Origin: Tridacna crocea
Taxonomy: Eukaryota > Mollusca > Bivalvia > Cardiida > Cardiidae
NCBI GenBank assembly: GCA_943736015.1
Contig: OX031071.1
Span: 12,868,119 to 12,932,118 of the forward strand
Direction: 5' to 3'
Length of the DNA: 64,000 nucleotides
Shown: positions 254-9,587 of the stretch, in pieces
Layout of the letters: every line of letters begins with the position of its first letter
How positions within the stretch are numbered: position 1 is the stretch's first letter
Position numbers and translations under genes: made by a program
Notes under the pieces: generated by a model
The model's input: the letters and a program-made list of their open reading frames with translations, nothing else
The model's database searches: none
Told to the model about the DNA's origin: nothing

Positions 254-1348
254 TGTCGCAAATTTATACAGTGCAAAGGGTTAATGTGTATACTCAATCA
301 GCAAGGTGTACTGATGAGCGGTCGTTCACTATATACATTGCTGTATTGTGTAAACTTGTGGTCAGTAGATATGTAGATTTTGGAGTGTGTAGATACTTTT
401 TGGCTTGCTCAGCCAATTTAATTGTTTTATAGTGCAAATAAGGGATAAGAAGTTGTCTCTTGTTTCTGCAATGATTATGTGAGAGGTGAGTGTCGCACAT
501 TGTTAAATGCCTGTTTTTGCAATATTGTGTGTGTGAGATTTTCATTCTGTCTGTCTGTCTGTATATTTCATTTTTGCATGCAAGAATTTTGCTATTTCTT
601 AAATTGTAAAGTCCGTCTGTTCCAAGTCGTGTCTTCTGTTAATACATGATATGAGTGGCTTTAACAGTTTGCTGCATGTATTCAATTATTGCATGTTATG
701 AGTTAGCTTGGCTTTAACGTTTTGTCATAAATTTTCAGTTGTCCTCGCCTCTTATGACCAGCTTATTTGTGATGTGCTGAATGTTGTATGCTGTCATACT
801 GTACCACGGTCTGTCTTATGTTGTGTGTTGTGTGAAGTACATACATGTAGAATAATGCCAATACTGTCGACATGCTAGTAACAAGCTCGAATCACTGACC
901 ATAAAGAAACGCTTAGAGAAAAGCCAATCAGTGTGCAAAAACTTTTGTGTTGTATGGAGCATGCAAGGAGATTTATAAGTGGGTATACTGGTATTATTAC
1001 ATGTAACGTTTTGTGTGGTTTGGCCAACAGACAGATACTGTGTTTTGGGTCCTCTCAAGATTTGTCGCATGTACCAAAAAGCTGGACTTGTGGGAAAGAA
1101 TTAAATAACTGTGTAACTCTGTGTAACAGAACTTTGAGTGTTAAAAATCACTTTACTGTGCTATTGTGAACGTCACATGCTATTTTCTATCTTTTCCTCT
1201 TCTTTTCTTTTTTTTTCCTTTGTCTTTGCACAATGTCTTGTATGTTTAGCATAGTTTTTCATCATTAAACTTTGCTATTGTTTGTTTTCACAGTCTGTCG
1301 TTCTAGGAGTTGACTTTTCCATCTTTCAAAAAAAATCACGTCTTCACA
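254..1348 (+). mobile_element. candidate 3' LTR (fossil)
   Basis: Sequence starting TGTCGC follows the polypurine tract. It is non-coding, contains a short CTGT microsatellite (546-563) and has an ATTAAA-type polyadenylation signal near 1265. The likely right end is CTTCACA near 1341-1348. With no 5' LTR in view the end is a guess, and age cannot be estimated from LTR divergence. Confidence 0.45.
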
Positions 1349-1382
1349 CACACCTTTAACGTAAGATTTTATAATCACATTG

Positions 1383-1428
1383 GGTGCCATTAGGGGGGCA
1401 TACATGTTTTACAAACATCTCTTGTTTT
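1383..1428 (+). repeat. 3'-end fragment of TATGCC-type repeat
   Basis: GCCATTAGGGGGGCATACAT and the following TTTTACAAACATCTCTTGTT are almost identical to the sequence at about 9360-9405. That is the 3' end of the long repeat that starts at 1741, so this is a separate terminal fragment. Confidence 0.6.
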
Positions 1429-1740
1429 ACTAGATGTGGGAGGAGCCAGTAGAATTCGTATGTGCGGAACGGCTGTCTTTATTTCAAGCAGACAAAATTT
1501 TATGGACTTTTGAAAGGTAGAAAATTTCCACAAATACTCCTGTCTGATTGGACAAAAAATTAGGTCGATCACTAAATGCAGGTAAATCATCATTATTTAA
1601 AATAGACTCTTTCAATGAGAAGTTTTTTACTATAGCACTGTTCTTGTTTCGCGCTAAGCCACCCTTGTGTGACCACGATAAATACAATTTCAAATACACA
1701 ATCACTCAATATGTATGCTCTACCATACAACGCTAGTTAT
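1429..1740. other. short unassigned stretch resembling the 2.5-kb inverted repeat
   Basis: No gene is seen. Bases about 1475-1565 share a scattered pattern (TTTGAAAGGTA, CTACAAATAC-like, TGATTGG) with the inverted-repeat arm at about 2535-2650. This suggests a diverged relative of that arm. Confidence 0.3.
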
Positions 1741-2423
1741 GCCCCCTTTCGAAGAAAGGGGGGTATATTGCTTTGCACTTGTCGGTCAGTCCGTCGGTCG
1801 GTCGGTCCGTAGACCACATTTTTGTCCGGAATATAACTCTAAAAGTATTTCAGGTATCATCTTGAAACTACATAGGTGGATAGATCTCATTTGGAAAAAG
1901 TGCAGTGCACAGGAATCATAACTCTGCCCATCATATTTTTGGAGTTACTGCCCTTTGTTGATTTTCGTACTTAATTTTTTCTGGAGAATAACTCTAAAAG
2001 TATATCAGGTATCATCTTCAAACTTCATAGGTAGATAGATCTCATTAAGGAGAAATGCAGTGCACAAGTACCATAACTCTGCCCATCATATTTTTCGGGT
2101 TATTGCCCTTTGTTGATTTTCATACTTAATTTTTGTCTGGAGCATAATTCTAAAAGTATTTCAGGTATAACCTTGAAACCTCATAGGTATATAGATCTTA
2201 TTAAGAAAAAGTGCAGTGCACAAGAACCATAACTCTGTCCATCATATTTATGGAGTTATTGCCCTTTGTTGATTTTCATACTTAATTTTTGTCCGGAGCT
2301 TAACTCTAAAAGTATATCAGGTACCATCTTGAAACTTGATAGGTAGATAGATCTCATTAAGGAGAAGTGCAGTGCACAAGAACCATAACTCTGCCTATGA
2401 ATTCTTTGGAGTTATTGCCCTTT
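1741..2423 (+). repeat. TATGCC-type interspersed repeat, 5' part (interrupted)
   Basis: It begins GCCCCCTTTCGAAGAAAGGG, followed by a GTCGGTCGGTCGG run. It then has about four diverged tandem units of roughly 155 bases, each with 'TTTTTGTCCGGAGCATAACT'-like, 'AGTGCAGTGCACAAG'-like and 'GTTATTGCCCTTTG'-like segments. The repeat is split at 2423 by the element at 2424-8828 and resumes at 8829. No coding capacity is seen. I recognise this class as common in bivalve genomes. Confidence 0.7.
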
Positions 2424-2862
2424 CACTATGGACCAACGTACAGTGTCGCAAATCGGAAGCTGCAGCTACTGTACGCCCCAAATCAGTTAGCTGCAGTAAA
2501 CAAGTTTAACAAAACAGGCTGGCACGCGTAATCTAGCAAACAGAAAATGATCGGGTGTTTTGCATTTGAAAGGTAAGAAGTTTTTCTACAAATACATACT
2601 GCGATTGGGTTAATAAACCGAGCGAGTTTTGTATAGGAAAGCTGCATCACCAAATTTCGTCGTTGGCGGCTGCCATGATCGCTAAACATTTGCTTTCTAT
2701 TCCTTCGGGAAGATCGGAAACCATTTTCTGATACTGCATACAGATAAAGAAATCATTCAGCTTGGCGTATACATGTCTATGGTTGTATTCAGTGCCATAT
2801 CCATTGAAATATTTCACTTTTTATCAAGGTACCATCAAAACGTTCACTGTACGGCTAGCTGC
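2424..2862 (+). repeat. left terminal inverted repeat
   Basis: This pairs with 8391-8828 over about 439 bases with few mismatches. It runs from CACTATGGACC through TGCAGTAAACAAGTTTAAC and CTGATACTGCATACAG to GTACGGCTAGCTGC. The right arm reads the same sequence on the other strand. Confidence 0.9.
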
Positions 2863-2992
2863 ATCTGTACGCAACGATTAGCTGCATTTCACAATAAAAA
2901 ATGTGTACGCCTAGCTGCATTAATGCATCATAATACTGAACAAAAAGGTTCAGCCCATATGGTAAAACACGTTTTTTTAGCTCGAAATTATA

Positions 2993-3454
2993 TATGTCGT
3001 ATGCCGGATCGGAATCTAGGCATATCCCGGGAATCTGCCTAGACCAAATTAGAATAATACTTTAGTGTAGACCAAAATAGATCTAGATTCTTTTCCAAAT
3101 TTTTAATCATATTAATTCTCATGTGCTTACAATTGAAACGTATTTTTAATTGAAGCAATTTATTTGTTTTTCCCTTGATTGCTCCGTTTTCCTCGTTGCA
3201 TTTTTTCCTCGAAAGTGCTAAACACTCAAAATTTAATCTTACTCAGAATTTCTAATTAAACTTCTTTTATGTTGGAGTTTAAGTTGACTAAGATGGTTAA
3301 TATGTAGTCGCATTATATAAAACGACAAAATATTCCGATTTGGTCTAGGCAGATTGTGCTGTCTAGCCAAACTGTTAAACTATTTTGGTATAGGCAAAAT
3401 TCCAGTTTGGTCTAGATTTCGGATCTGCCTAGATTCCAGTTTGGACAGCGACAT
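2993..3454. mobile_element. MITE-like inverted repeat with CTAGACCAAA motifs
   Basis: The left end (TATGTCGTATGCC...GGAATCTAGGCAT) and right end (ATCTGCCTAGATTCC...GACAGCGACATA) are inverted copies. The motif TCTGCCTAGACCAAA or its complement recurs near 3016, 3031, 3065, 3341, 3405 and 3425. The middle is AT-rich and non-coding. It lies inside the Transib-like element, so it may be either part of it or a later insertion. Family unknown. Confidence 0.5.
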
Positions 3455-4189
3455 ACATAAATATATAAATTCAAACAATAGCAGGTAAGATTATCTTGTT
3501 TCTTCAAGGCATTTCATGAATTACACAAATCCGGCTCCATTGATAAATCCTTTTATTACATGGAAAACATCGCTGATATCATTTCTTGATTTAGGTCTAA
3601 TTCCTGTACAACAGATAGGTACAAAGTTTGCCATTTTTTGCAACCCCTAATCATTGATTTTAATTCACTGATAAACATCAATGAATTATACAGTAATTTA
3701 TTTTTTTTAGGTTTTCAACAAAATAAAGAATTCAGTTCGGGTTAAACGTAAAGTTTTCAGGTTTTCGTTCTTCACCTGAATTCACGATATTATCTCGCAC
3801 ATCCATCCTCAAGTCTCAAGTCTTTACCAAAGCATTTGCAGACGTTCAGTTGGTAGCGTTTTCCTTTGAATTTATAAATCTCAGTTTTACAGAAGTACTA
3901 GCTTAAAGGCAGCCGATTCTTTTAATACATCAACCTCTAAACGTGCTCAATACTGACTATGGATCGTTTATAGACGATGGAAGACCTATTCACGACCGCT
4001 TGATTCACCCATGGATTCTTTAAAGGGTGGAAATGGAACCTAGAAAAGTCGAATACGAACTTTATACATTCACCACTGCCAACCTCACATCTTCAGAGCT
4101 AGATCTATATGTCATTTATTGCAACACTCTTAACCAAAATGTACACAATTTTCATTATAAGCTTTCAAAGCCTGTCTAAATCGCAGGAC
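3455..4189. other. non-coding interior, nothing recognised
   Basis: AT-rich sequence with no convincing reading frame, repeat or RNA. It lies between the MITE and the CG-rich motif cluster of the Transib-like element. Confidence 0.5.
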
Positions 4190-4560
4190 TTCGCGCGGTT
4201 TCCGCAAGACTGTCTTACGAATTTGCAACGCCGTAGACGTCGCAATTAAGCTGGTTTTTCAACATGCTCATTTTCCTAGCGATTTCTTTGCGATTTTTTG
4301 AGTTTGCACGGCAACTGAACGGTTGCCACACGGGAGCCATACGGCTACCTTGAGACCATAGCACATCAATCATACGGTTTTATAACTTGCGTTTGTCCTG
4401 CGAAGGCCGAAAGACGATCGTACGAACATCTTGCGGCTGCCCTGCGAATGCCTTGCGTTTGGTGAAAGTCTGTCTGAAGACTACTGCGGAACGTAGGAAC
4501 AACGTAGAGATTCGCACAGCTGCCTCGCAAATGCCTTGCGAAAAGTTAGTGTCATCCGTC
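4190..4560. repeat. subterminal CG-rich motif cluster (left)
   Basis: A dense run of short degenerate motifs (TTGCGA/TGCGAA, CTTGCG, CGCAAG, GTACGAAC, GGCTGCC) stands out against the AT-rich surroundings. The same motif types recur at 6165-6350 and 8160-8390. Subterminal repeat clusters like this often serve as transposase-binding regions; that role is inferred. Confidence 0.45.
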
Positions 4561-4858
4561 CTCTTTTAAAAAGTTTGTATGTCTTGTTCGTCATCAGTCG
4601 CTATCGAGATTTCAGGACGAGAAGGTCATGCAGAAATGAAGATCTCAGAATGGAAAGGGGTATGTTCCGATTGCTGAACCCCCATTGAACCCGAGACATT
4701 CAAGGTACCACCAACCCAGGATTTAGATGAAGAAAGCACGTGCTTGTACAAGAATGACAAAATGCCCATAGCATAAAATATTGTCGTCCCGGTCTTTATC
4801 TGCGAGTATCCTGTCCATTGTTTCAATATGCAACCTATGTGCCGGGGTAGCATTGTGA
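4561..4858. other. unassigned interior between motif cluster and Penelope element
   Basis: No family was recognised. The minus strand is open in two overlapping frames of 66-75 codons, with no known domain. It ends at the TA microsatellite where the Penelope-like element begins. Confidence 0.4.
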
Positions 4859-6010
4859 ATATATATATATATAGTTTTAGGATATTTAGAAGAGATACTA
4901 TATGAAAATGTAAAAGAACTCAAAGACGAAAACTTTTCAGATTATATATGCAAACAATGGAAAAGATATCTTGATGATTGTTTTATTTTTTGGACAAAAT
5001 CAGTTAATGATTTATCTGTCTTTAATGACATACTTAACTCGTTACATAAAGATATAAAATTTAAGATGGAGATGAATTCAAATAAAATGCCTTTTCTAGA
5101 CGTGTTAGTGGTAAAAATGGGTTGTACAATTGTCACTGATATTCATTTCAAAATTACAGATTCTAAGCAATATTTGAATTTCAGGTCATGTCACCCAAAA
5201 CATAACAAGGTCAACATTCCGTTCTCCCTAGCCCGAAGGATCTGCACAATTGTATCTGACAGAAAAATTCTACAGTTAAGATTACGTGAACTTGAAAACA
5301 TTTTAATTGAAAGAAAATACCCTAAAGCAGTAATCTTAGCAGGTATCAATAAAGCTCTTAATATTCCAAGACATACTCTCTTACAGGTAAAGGTTAAACA
5401 TGATGACAATATAATGGCATATATTTCGACATTTAATCCTAAAAACAGAGAGTTATTTGGAATTATTAAGAATAATTTTGAAATTTTGGAAAATGATCGA
5501 ACAATGTCACAAATACTAAGTAATACCAAATTAATTAAAGGTAAGAGACAACTTCCAAATCTTAAACAGATTTTGATTAAATCAGAATTCAAAGACAGAA
5601 CTTCAAAATCTTCAGTGAAAAAATGCAATGAGTCCCGCTGTGGACTCTGTAAGCATATTATCGAAGGCAATGAATTCAAAATCAAGGATAAAACTTTTAC
5701 TGTTAAAGAAGATATGGATTGCAAAGTTTCTAACTGTTTGTACCTTTTAGTATGCAATGGCTGCCAAGAGTTTTATATTGGTCAAACAGGCGATAAACTT
5801 AGAAATAGAATTACAATACATAATCAACAGATTAGGGACCCTTCAACAAGACAAATACCATTGAGTTCTCATTTAGATAGTTGTTGTAAAACAGATCCAA
5901 AATTTTCAATTTTTCCATTTTTTAAATGCAAATCAACCGACGTTTCAGCTAGAGTATCAAAGGAAAAATATTTCATAAACATTTTTCGTCCAAAATTGAA
6001 CTGTATTTAA
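4859..6010 (+). CDS. Penelope-like RT (C-terminal part) plus GIY-YIG endonuclease
   Basis: The frame is open from the microsatellite at 4859 to the stop ending at 6010, about 383 codons with no internal stop. The order is RT catalytic motif RYLDDCFIFW (4964-4993), NKMPFLDVLV (RT thumb entry), then LNFRSCHPKHNK and SLARRICTIVSD, typical of Penelope RT ends. A linker zinc-type motif CNESRCGLCKH follows near 5625, then the GIY-YIG nuclease (YLLVCNGCQEFYIGQTGDKL...R...H, near 5740-5825) and a closing KEKYFINIFRPKLN. The nuclease nicks target DNA and the RT primes on it. The methionine at 5066 is internal and is not a real start. The intact frame suggests a fairly recent insertion. Confidence 0.88.
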   Translation: MYIYIVLGYLEEILYENVKELKDENFSDYICKQWKRYLDDCFIFWTKSVNDLSVFNDILNSLHKDIKFKMEMNSNKMPFLDVLVVKMGCTIVTDIHFKITDSKQYLNFRSCHPKHNKVNIPFSLARRICTIVSDRKILQLRLRELENILIERKYPKAVILAGINKALNIPRHTLLQVKVKHDDNIMAYISTFNPKNRELFGIIKNNFEILENDRTMSQILSNTKLIKGKRQLPNLKQILIKSEFKDRTSKSSVKKCNESRCGLCKHIIEGNEFKIKDKTFTVKEDMDCKVSNCLYLLVCNGCQEFYIGQTGDKLRNRITIHNQQIRDPSTRQIPLSSHLDSCCKTDPKFSIFPFFKCKSTDVSARVSKEKYFINIFRPKLNCI

Positions 6011-6059
6011 CCGTTGTTCTATGACGTCAAAATGACGTTAGTTACAATGTTTCATTAAA

Positions 6060-6100
6060 GCGTTGCCCTGATGAGCGAAAGCGAAACCGGTTGGCACGTT
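6060..6100 (+). ncRNA. hammerhead ribozyme (type I-like, short stem III)
   Basis: The layout matches a hammerhead core. Stem I 5' strand is GCGTTGCC (6060-6067), core CTGATGA (6068-6074), stem II GC-GAAA-GC (6075-6082), core GAA (6083-6085), stem III ACCGGT (6086-6091), residue T as the cleavage position (6092), and stem I 3' strand GGCACGTT (6093-6100), which pairs back with one bulge. The six-base self-complementary stem III is typical of hammerheads in Penelope-like elements, which often cut as dimers. It lies 50 bases after the nuclease stop, where such motifs are known in the pseudo-LTR. Confidence 0.75.
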
Positions 6101-6164
6101 AAAAACTATTTGTAGTGTCATTTCTCTTTTATTATATATATATATATATATATGCAATCGGACA

Positions 6165-6350
6165 AGAGGAGATAATTCCTCCTCCTTATGGCGATCGCAC
6201 GAACACCGTACAGCTGTCTTGCAAAATCGTGCTTGCCGTGCGGTGGTCGTAAGAAACTTTGAAAATTCTTACGGCAGTCAGATTGCGGGTGCCTTGAGAA
6301 TTTGTGCGGCAGCCTTAAGCTAACCGCACGACAGCCGTGCGAACTCGTCG
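6165..6350. repeat. subterminal CG-rich motif cluster (middle)
   Basis: Motifs GATCGCACGAAC, CGTACAGCTG, TCTTGCAAAATCGTGC, CTTACGGCAGTC and CCGCACGACAGCCGTGCG resemble those at 4190-4560 and 8160-8390. The Penelope element separates this part from the left cluster. The two were probably one continuous region before that insertion. Confidence 0.45.
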
Positions 6351-6360
6351 CTTTGTTTTT

Positions 6361-8156
6361 AGCTCACCTTAGCACAAAGTGCTACAGGTGAGCTATTGTG
6401 ATCGCCCTATGTCCTTCGTCCGTAGTCTGTCGTCCGTCAACAATTTCTTTAAAAATCTTCTCCTCCTAAACACTGGGTTAATCTTCATGAAACTTGGCAG
6501 GAATGTTCCTTGGGTGAAGCTCTACCAAAATTGTTCAAAGAATGTAATTCCACCTATAACTCTGGTTGCCATGGCAACAAAAAGAAAAAAAAAACGAAAT
6601 CTTTGAAAATCTTCTTCTCTGAAACTATAAGGCGTAGAGCTTTGATATTTGGTATGTAGTATCTCCTAATGGACCTCTATCAAGTTTGTTCAAATCATGC
6701 CCCTAGGGTCAGAACTGGCCCCGCCCCGGGGGATAACGAGTTTGAGCATAGGAACAAAGGAGGAAAACTTTAAAAATCTTCTCCTCTGAAACTTGAAGGC
6801 GTAAAGCTTTGATATTTGTTATGTAGCATCTCCTAGTTGACATCTACCAAGTTTGTTCAAATTATATCCCTGGGGTCAAAACTGGCTCCATCCCAAGGGT
6901 CACAAGTTTGAGCAAAGGAACGAAGAAGGAAAAATTTAAAAATCTTCTCCTCTGAAACTTGAAGGCGTAGAGCTTTGACATTTAGTATGTGACATCTCCT
7001 AGCGGACCTCTGCCAAGTTTGTTCAAATTATGCCCCTGGGGTCAAAACTGGCCCCATCCCGGGGGTCACAAGTTTGAGCATAGGAACAAAGAAGGAAAAC
7101 TTTAAAAATCTTCTCCTCTGAAACTAGAAAGCGTAGAGCTTTGATATTTGGTCTGTTGGATCTCCTAGTGGACCTCCACCAATTTTATTCAAATGATGTC
7201 CCTGGGGTCAAAACTGGCCCCACCCTGGGGGTCACTAGTTTGAACATAGGAACAAAGGAGGAAAACTTTTAAACTCTTCTTCTCTGAAACTAGATGGCGT
7301 AGTGCTTTGATAATTGGTATGTGGCATCTTCCAGCGGACCTCTACCAAGTTTCTTTAAATCATGCCCGTGGGATCAAAACTGGCCCCGCCCCGGGGGTCA
7401 CAAGTTCGAACATAGGAACAAAGAAAGAAAATTTTAAAATTCTTCTTCTCTAAAACTAGAAGGCATAGAGCTATGATATTTGGCATGTAGCATTGAATCT
7501 CTACCAAGTTTGTTCCTGTTATGCCCTTGGGGACAAAACTGGCCCTGCCCCGGGGGGGGGGGGGTGTCACAGGTTCGAACATAGCAACAAAGAAGGAAAA
7601 CTTTAGAAATCTTCTCTGAAACTTGAAGGTACAGAGCTTTGACATTTGGTTTGCAGAATCTTCTAGTGGAACTCTACCAAGTTTGGTAATATGATGTCCC
7701 TGGCGTCAAAACTGGCCATGCCCCGGAGGTCACAGGTTGGAACATAATTATGAACAAAGAAGGAAATTTTTGAATTTATTTTTCTCTTAAACGGGAAGCA
7801 GTAGAGCTTTGATATTTGGGATGTAGCATATTTGAGTGGACCTCTATCAAGTTTGTTCCAAGGATGCTGCTTTGGTTAAAACTGACCCAGCCCGAGGACC
7901 ACAAGTTCGAACATAGGGCAAAGAAGGAAATTTAAAACTCTTCTTTGAAACTGGCAGGTGTATAGCTTTGATATTTGATTGCCCTATGTCCGGCGTCTGT
8001 CGCCCATCAACAATTTCTTAAAACATCTTCTTCTCCTAACCCACTGGGCCAATCTTGATGAAACTTGGCAGGGATGTTCCTTGGGTGAAGCTTTACCAAA
8101 GTTGCTCAAAGAATTGAATTTCAATCATAAGCTATAGTCTAAGGTGAGCGTTCCAG
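6361..8156 (+). repeat. AGCTCACC-class interspersed repeat with internal ~165-bp tandem units
   Basis: It starts TTTAGCTCACCTTAGCACAA, a small hairpin around GTGCTACAGGTGAGC, and ends CTAAGGTGAGCGTTCCAGGG. About eight tandem units of roughly 165 bases fill 6600-7970, each with 'TCTTCTCCTCTGAAACT', 'GGCGTAGAGCTTTGATATTT' and 'CCTCTACCAAGTTTGTTCAA'. The opening block (CAACAATTTCTT...AAACTTGGCAGG) repeats at 7978-8115. I know this class as abundant in bivalves. It has no coding sequence, and how it moves is unclear to me. Confidence 0.75.
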
Positions 8157-8159
8157 GGC

Positions 8160-8390
8160 CAAGTTGTTTTTTCGTACGTTCAACCTGCGGACACCGTACA
8201 GTTCGTGAGTCAACTGTACGAACAACGTACGGAGATCGCTTTGAAAATTTGCAATATGTGCGAAGGGTACGAATAAATAACGATCGTGTTTGCAGCGAAA
8301 ATCGTAAGACGAAAAAATCGCACGGCTGATGTGAAAGAGACGTTACCAAGAAAATCGCAGCTAACCGAGCAGTACAAAAAGTCGGGTTAG
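8160..8390. repeat. subterminal CG-rich motif cluster (right)
   Basis: Motifs TTCGTACGTTC, CACCGTACAG, CTGTACGAACAACGTACGGA, GCGAAGGGTACGAA, AAAATCGTAAGACG and AAAATCGCAG sit directly inside the right inverted repeat. They mirror the cluster inside the left half. Confidence 0.5.
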
Positions 8391-8828
8391 CAGCTAGCCG
8401 TACAGTGAACGTTTTGATGGTACCTTGATAAAAAGTGAAATATTTCAATGGATATGGCACTAAATACAACCATAGAAATGTATACGCCAAGCTGAATGAT
8501 TTCTTTATCTGTATGCAGTATCAGAAAATGGTTTCCGATCTTCCCGAAGGAGTAGAAAACAAAAGTTTAGCGATCATGGCAGCCGCCAACGACAAAATTT
8601 GGTGATGCAGCTTTCCTATACAAAAATCGCACGGTTTATGAACCCAATCGCAGTATGTATTTGTAGAAAAACTTCTTACCTTTCAAATGCAAAACACCAA
8701 ATCATTTTCTGTTTGCTAGATTACGCATGCCAGCCTGTTTTGTTAAACTTGTTTACTGCAGCTAACTGATTTGGGGCGTACAGTAGCAGCAGCTTCCGAT
8801 TTGCGACACTGTACGTTGGTCCATACTG
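8391..8828 (-). repeat. right terminal inverted repeat
   Basis: Reverse complement of 2424-2862. It ends GTACGTTGGTCCATACTG, followed by the duplicated CCTTT. The third base of the terminal heptamer differs between ends (CAC on the left, CAG on the right), which would be expected to weaken recognition if this is a Transib. Confidence 0.9.
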
Positions 8829-9405
8829 CCTTTGTTGATTTTCATAATTAATTTTTGTCCGGAGCATAACTCTAAAAGTATTTCAGATATCACCTTGAAA
8901 CCTCAGAGGTGGATAGATCTCATTAAGGAGAACTGCAGTGTACAAGTAGCATAATTCTGCCCATCATATTTTTGGAGTTATTGCCATTTGTTAATTTTCA
9001 TACTTAATTTTTGTCCAGAGCATAACTCAAAAGATTTTTCAGGTATCATCTTGAAACTTTATATGTCTATAGATCTTATTCAGGAGAAGTGCATTGCACA
9101 AGAACCATAACTCTGCCCATTATATTTTTGCAGTTATTGCCCTTTGTTGATTTTTATACTTAATTTTTTTCCGCAGCATAACTTTTAAAGTATGTGAGGT
9201 AAAATCATAAAACTTTAAAAGTTGATAGTTCACATAAATGGGAAGTGCAGTGCCCAAGAATTGTTAATTTATCATTAATAATTTTTTAGTAATTACACTT
9301 TGTTCGTTTTTACACTTTGAACTTAACAGTTTATAATCGCATGTTATATTTAGAATTGGATGCCATTAGGGGGGCATACATGTTTTACAAACATCTCTTG
9401 TTACA
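8829..9405 (+). repeat. TATGCC-type interspersed repeat, 3' part
   Basis: Continuation of the repeat that starts at 1741, after the CCTTT duplication. About three further tandem units follow and it closes with CCATTAGGGGGGCATACATG and ACATCTCTTGTT. The first bases of the repeat (TATGCCCCC) and the last (GGGGGGCATA) are inverted, so the whole unit may have short inverted ends. Confidence 0.7.
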
Positions 9406-9587
9406 ATTAAATGTCATTTTCTTTTTTACTAAACTTTCGTACATAGATCTTGAAAAGCTTTGGTCGGGTTCTTGTAAAAATTCTCTAGCTTCAATCAATT
9501 TGTCGATCAAATATTATGCCTGTCCGTCTGTTTTTCCCTGTCTGATTTTTTTTTGTCAGTCCTAGATACCTGTCTCTTCTTATCTTA

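Follow-up and report, generated by a model that had tools for sequence, protein, structure and literature searches.

A long-armed, very probably non-autonomous DNA transposon family in the genome of Tridacna crocea, with variable third terminal bases and 4- or 5-bp target-site duplications

Several groups of DNA transposons resemble, in part, the element considered here. The trinucleotide CAC is reported to be essential at both ends of ProtoRAG (PMC8289069), and the protostome RAGL ends reported so far all start with CAC, follow the consensus CACTWMCAAACKTYKBB and are flanked by duplications that are invariably 5 bp long (PMC7204232). A survey of molluscs contains one Transib element (PMC10294476), which we counted against a Transib reading. 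EnSpm, Mirage, Chapaev and Transib have been grouped as CMCT, EnSpm having CAC..GTG ends and 3-bp duplications; the same source describes hAT5 as a group with 5-bp duplications, and IS3EU elements as ending at TAYGG itself, with 6-bp duplications (PMC12730594). Ginger elements have TGTNR tips, and Ginger1 targets CCGG or CCGT while Ginger2 prefers RTATAY (PMC2836005). The element analysed here lies at 2424..8828 of a 64,000-nt stretch of the Tridacna crocea genome (assembly GCA_943736015.1, contig OX031071.1, positions 12,868,119 to 12,932,118 of the forward strand; hereafter the window, in whose numbering positions are given unless a label such as C1 is used). It had been described in an earlier note, made from the sequence alone, as a 6.4-kb element with RAG/Transib-type ends. 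According to our analysis, the element is very probably a copy of a family of non-autonomous DNA transposons of the cut-and-paste type, mobilised in trans with a 4- or 5-bp stagger, and its assignment to Transib/RAG is disfavoured.

The left terminal inverted arm (2424..2862, + strand; tip CACTATGGACC) and the right one (8390..8828, - strand; inward-read tip CAGTATGGACC) are each 439 bp long, are 97% complementary to each other and are separated by 5527 nt; the inverted repeats of the earlier note were thus exact to the base. From the flanks, which end with TTATTGCCCTTT on the left and begin with CCTTTGTTG on the right, the target-site duplication CCTTT was assigned to 2419..2423 and 8829..8833 (no strand for either). 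The insertion splits a host tandem array with a 156-bp unit (1818-2423 and 8829-9260 in the tandem-repeat analysis). When the element and one CCTTT are removed, TTATTGCCCTTTGTTG is obtained, and this sequence is found unbroken in the neighbouring unit, which bears out the proposed 5-bp duplication and restored tandem unit.

The genome sequence searched amounted to 1.05 Gb in 31 contigs. With the arm as the query, all of the 40 scored places (drawn from 436 first-look candidates) matched at 97-100%. A 25-base tip pattern, with two or fewer mismatches allowed, gave 132 forward and 134 reverse matches (266 in total) and none in either direction when reversed as a control, and 266 tips correspond to up to about 130-133 two-ended copies. 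At least 41 inward-facing pairs, comprising 82 of the 100 tips listed, were counted by eye; their spacing was mostly 3.5-7.6 kb, with one pair at 447 bp and five at 9-22 kb. Reading covered 20 further places, 19 of which hold the left and the right arm; L029-L035 and L052 were added afterwards. A set of 20 copies, including that of the window, was chosen for similarity to the left arm of the window copy; in this set the mean identity was 98.7% between left arms and 97.4% between right arms, and a left and a right arm were 95.9% identical when taken from different elements and 96.0% when taken from the same one. Since left and right arms are equally alike within and between elements, they form two separate lineages, with no homogenisation between them. 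Four copies at C1:61395656-61624892, spaced at about 70-77 kb, share the same 11-base flanks and have lengths of 4101, 6652, 4996 and 7565 bp; they probably represent a single insertion that was multiplied by segmental duplication, with the interiors diverging later.

The length of the target-site duplication was determined from the flanks of the copies read and from the tip pattern with flank positions (44 insertions plus L052). The four insertions with identical flanks (C1:61.4-61.6 Mb) were counted once, and five copies that had already been read were not counted again; L018 has no entry, its right end being beyond the stretch read, and L031, with a 1-base flank match, was entered as having none. 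Among the resulting 45 independent insertions, the duplication was 5 bp in 25, 4 bp in 13, 6 bp in 1, 3 bp in 2, 2 bp in 2 and 0-1 bp in 2, so that 38 of the 45 had 4 or 5 bp. A flank match of at least 4 bases was found in 34 of 39 true pairs and in 14 of 1482 mismatched pairings (0.9%), this control covering 39 of the 45 pairs. Because a duplication is scored only when the left flank ends with the same letters with which the right flank begins, a base change does not make a 5-bp duplication look like one of 4 bp; in single cases, loss of a base or a simple repeat (for example, AAAA) could do so. We take the mixture of 4 and 5 bp as a property of the insertion. The target letters are AT-rich and follow no strict motif.

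The terminal bases are also variable. In the 20-copy set, the choice of which favours the window's left arm, 19 left tips read CACTATGG and one CAGTATGG, while 19 right tips read CAGTATGG and one CCGTATGG; that is, 19 right tips start with CAG and one with CCG. For pairing, 100 of 117 tips were listed, of which 52 were paired (26 pairs) and 48 were unused. Among these listed matches, 13 pairs were CAC/CAG, 13 were CAG/CAG and none was CAC/CAC; with the fourfold-duplicated insertion counted once, CAG/CAG accounted for 10 of 23 pairs. At least one CAC/CAC pair (C6:1814404/1818984) is present among the tips listed by the 25-base pattern, and the tips of L052 are CAG and CAATATGG, a CAA end. The ends of the family therefore consist of CA followed by C, G or A (CC in one case), and then TATGGACC or GTATGG. 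When three tip strings, the shortest being just 8 bases in length, were searched for in published text, 741 papers contained one of them; the 8 papers listed concerned other subjects, as judged from their titles and the beginnings of their abstracts.

These data bear directly on the possibility that the family is a non-autonomous Transib or RAG-like transposon with long terminal inverted repeats, moved by a RAG1-like enzyme. The left tip CACTATG is identical to the terminal 7 bp of ProtoRAG (PMC8289069); 5 bp is the commonest duplication length (25 of 45), and CAC stands at one end in 13 of the 26 listed pairs and at the start of three of five diverged tips (see below). RAG itself is able to make some shorter duplications. 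Against this reading, CAC at both ends and a uniform 5-bp duplication, as in Transib and RAG-like elements, are not features of the family: the third base is C, G or A and 13 of the 45 duplications are 4 bp long. The tip CANTATGGACCAACGTA differs from the protostome RAGL consensus, and the 439-bp arms are a further difference from the Transib, ProtoRAG and RAG-like elements.

No RAG1-like or Transib gene was found either. The probes were checked against PDB entries: with the RAG1 core, E was 0 for RAG1 chains and 3.2e-79 for 6b40_A, a RAG1L chain, and the 367-aa (amino acid) Transib core matched 6pqn_A (HzTransib) at E 3.1e-106. In the genome, no match was obtained with the RAG1 core, the 367-aa Transib core or the 53-aa Transib C-terminal motif at E up to 1, or with PF12940 at E up to 0.001; since no positive-control genome was searched with these probes, the empty searches are evidence and not proof. 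On these four genome searches, RAG1L and Transib are disfavoured as the partner. Two of the outcomes that the earlier note had named as refuting its own assignment, another duplication length (4 bp) and another terminal base (CAG at both ends, or the CAA of L052), are present in the family; as to the third, no other transposase family was linked to these ends. The autonomous relative with a RAG1-like transposase that it had proposed to look for did not appear in these searches. The support that it had asked for, CACWATG with 5-bp duplications in most copies, was borne out as to the commonest duplication length and failed as to the tips, half of the listed pairs being CAG/CAG; likewise, from its proposal of a non-autonomous Transib with long inverted repeats, the long-armed transposon of the cut-and-paste type without a visible transposase is retained, and Transib is not. 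The alternative given in the note, an unnamed superfamily with the same terminal bases, may apply. We regard a Transib or RAG-like origin as very unlikely.

The ends of this transposon family have a conserved 38-bp tip core (2424..2461, + strand, at the left end; 8791..8828, - strand, at the right end, from the tip comparison). The core is kept in five diverged tips (L037, L038, L040, L042 and L045), in which bases 15-38 show 0-2 differences in 24; the identity of bases 1-14 reflects their use in selecting these tips. An exception is the right tip of L035, in which 8 bp are missing inside the core. The paired motif GTACR...AGCTGC occurs on the + strand at 2438..2918 (starts at 2438, 2471, 2849, 2867 and 2905, the last two just inward of the arm), and in the 20 copies 158 of its 163 hits fall into two bins near the ends, 0-50 and 400-500. 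We take the 38-bp core as a probable transposase end site and the GTACR...AGCTGC repeats as candidate transposase-binding sites. The copies are most likely moved by an enzyme supplied in trans, which probably recognises the tip core together with the nearby repeats, and which would probably act beside the terminal CA and insert the element with a 4- or 5-bp stagger; we infer a DDE-type mechanism and a partner enzyme, present or past.

The repeated motifs near the ends also bring the CACTA/Mirage/Chapaev neighbourhood into consideration, in the form of a lineage that is less strict at the third base and cuts with a wider stagger. Subterminal repeats are a trait of CACTA, Chapaev duplications are 4 bp long, and duplications range over 2-4 bp across CACTA, Mirage and Chapaev; the CA(C) tips and the 13 duplications of 4 bp in the present family point in the same direction. 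The commonest duplication here is nevertheless 5 bp, and the variable third base does not agree with the CAC ends of that group; no gene shared with it was seen, although no search for a CMC transposase was made. Membership is doubtful. The hAT transposons, of which the hAT5 group shares the 5-bp duplications and, in part, the CAG tips, were compared as well; hAT matches are many in the genome (104 PF05699 places). The 4-bp class and the CAC and CAA tips do not fit hAT5, and the ends deviate from YARNG, the terminal consensus of hAT elements; moreover, among the matches listed on C1-C7 (55 hAT places against 100 tips), the hAT place closest to a tip was 67 kb away, and no linked hAT gene was found in these lists. 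A hAT5 origin is thus unlikely.

IS3EU elements share a TAYGG block near the tip, which in this family is TATGG starting at position 4 and not the terminus itself, and a 6-bp duplication was seen in 1 of 45 insertions. Ginger1 and Ginger2 share duplications of 4 or 5 bp, but the tips here start with CAN (CCG in one case) and not with TGTNR. By their published termini or duplication lengths, both Ginger and IS481EU were discounted. Miniature inverted-repeat transposable elements and large non-autonomous elements with terminal inverted repeats and internal tandem repeats resemble the family in the lack of a recognisable transposase, the inverted arms and the size variants (a 390-bp form is described below), and differ from it in that the arms here are long. 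As no compared family has all of the testable features, the superfamily is left open.

While the ends are kept among the copies, the interiors vary by deletions, by nested inserts of long interspersed nuclear element (LINE) or Penelope-like type and by inserts without recognised identity. Six other copies align end to end with L026 (5171 bp), and the rest vary by deletions and inserts. The interior common to the family copies includes the tandem array at 6589..7977 (no strand; 166-bp unit, 8.4 copies in the tandem-repeat analysis). At 4868..6144 of the window (+ strand, approximate borders), a segment between TA repeats carries a stop-to-stop frame with a GIY-YIG domain at its end (PF01541, E 4.9e-07); by this frame and these borders it was read as a nested Penelope-like fragment foreign to the element, and none of the remaining 19 complete copies in the 20-copy set contains it. 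The 6.4-kb figure of the earlier note is therefore correct for the span and too large for the element proper, which is about 5.1 kb after subtraction of the nested 1.28 kb or so. Within the nested fragment, CTGATGAG...CGAAAC at about 6068-6089 resembles a hammerhead ribozyme core by eye; Rfam reported no hammerhead, the scan of 2000-9500 giving two matches only, both under the gathering scores (E 0.38 and 0.97).

The statement that no transposase is visible was upheld for the copies read. With nested inserts set aside, open frames in 21 copies reached 151 aa at most. The Pfam scan, which covered open frames only and a subset of all frames (four of the window and six of other copies), detected no transposase; it detected two LINE reverse transcriptases and one GIY-YIG domain, and one window frame had a Dimerisation match below its cut-off (E 0.099). 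A transposase was looked for in further copies, mainly longer ones, and was not seen: L018 and L029 contain nested LINEs (RVT_1, E 4.9e-32 and 5.4e-32), the extra stretches of L016, L020 and L025 have no long open frames, the 2.4-kb insert of L034 is in part 66-74% like the internal repeat region of the family, and all frames of L052 are shorter than 90 aa.

Diverged and short relatives were also found. Eleven tips whose mate was missing from the list were examined: L039, L044 and L046 have full arms (96-97%), and L036, L041 and L043 have no likeness beyond the tip and are compatible with chance, the search pattern having given 14 control matches. The other five are the diverged tips mentioned above. 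Beyond the 38-bp core, L037 is 68% and L042 76% like the arm, while L038, L040 and L045, the three that start with CAC, are recognisable over 49-84 bp only (L040 also over 48 bp further in). No second end was found for these five within about 5-6.6 kb; they are either remnants or parts of elements that extend beyond what was read. A strict sibling-type pattern matched four tips genome-wide, all of them previously known. With a 134-bp query from L040, 40 of 384 candidates were scored, of which 17 were arms of the main family and 23 were other places; among the latter, L040, L042 and L052 were read and the other 20 were not. Sibling ends with nearly equal scores lie at C14:30180452(-), C11:15886764(-), C13:16085960(-) and C4:19127364(-). 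L052 is 2983 bp long, with arms 78% alike and the duplication AAACA. L035 is only 390 bp long, with arms of about 190 bp and the 5-bp duplication AAACT, which suggests that the inner part of the arm is dispensable; L031 (447 bp, 38 bp of it inverted, no duplication) looks like a rearranged remnant. Two further observations were made near diverged tips (reverse-complement coordinates): L049 has, at about 2669-3112, a frame resembling alpha-L-fucosidase by eye, about 2.6 kb from the tip, and L047 has, at about 1061-5518, a long array of short repeats, with several frames open, adjoining the tip.

Several points weigh against a non-autonomous family mobilised in trans. No autonomous partner was found in the genome searches or in the copies read, and it is for this reason that movement in trans is something we infer. 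Of at most 133 two-ended copies, roughly 100 went unread, including the longest intervals (21.6 kb at C6:31837603 and 12.7 kb at C3:5318658), and a transposase could reside in one of them; an interior gene that is split by introns or decayed would also be compatible with the scans of open frames and is possible. In addition, the duplication was 0-2 bp in 4 of the 45 insertions.

As for the source of the enzyme, we suggest tentatively that it might represent a eukaryotic DNA transposase lineage not described before, perhaps close to CACTA-Chapaev-Transib. Such a lineage would recognise CANTATGGACC ends and cut with a stagger of 4 or 5 bp, and its autonomous members may be among the diverged sibling ends detected with the L040 query. 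The left tip of the window copy and its 5-bp duplication are a fair yet misleading resemblance to the RAG lineage: a tip and a duplication of RAG/Transib appearance in a single copy are insufficient for assignment, which was overturned here by 45 insertions. Should the partner turn out to be a relative of the CACTA-Transib group that tolerates different third bases and cuts with a stagger of 4 or 5 bp, it would bear on how RAG-type enzymes acquired their invariant CAC and their 5-bp stagger.

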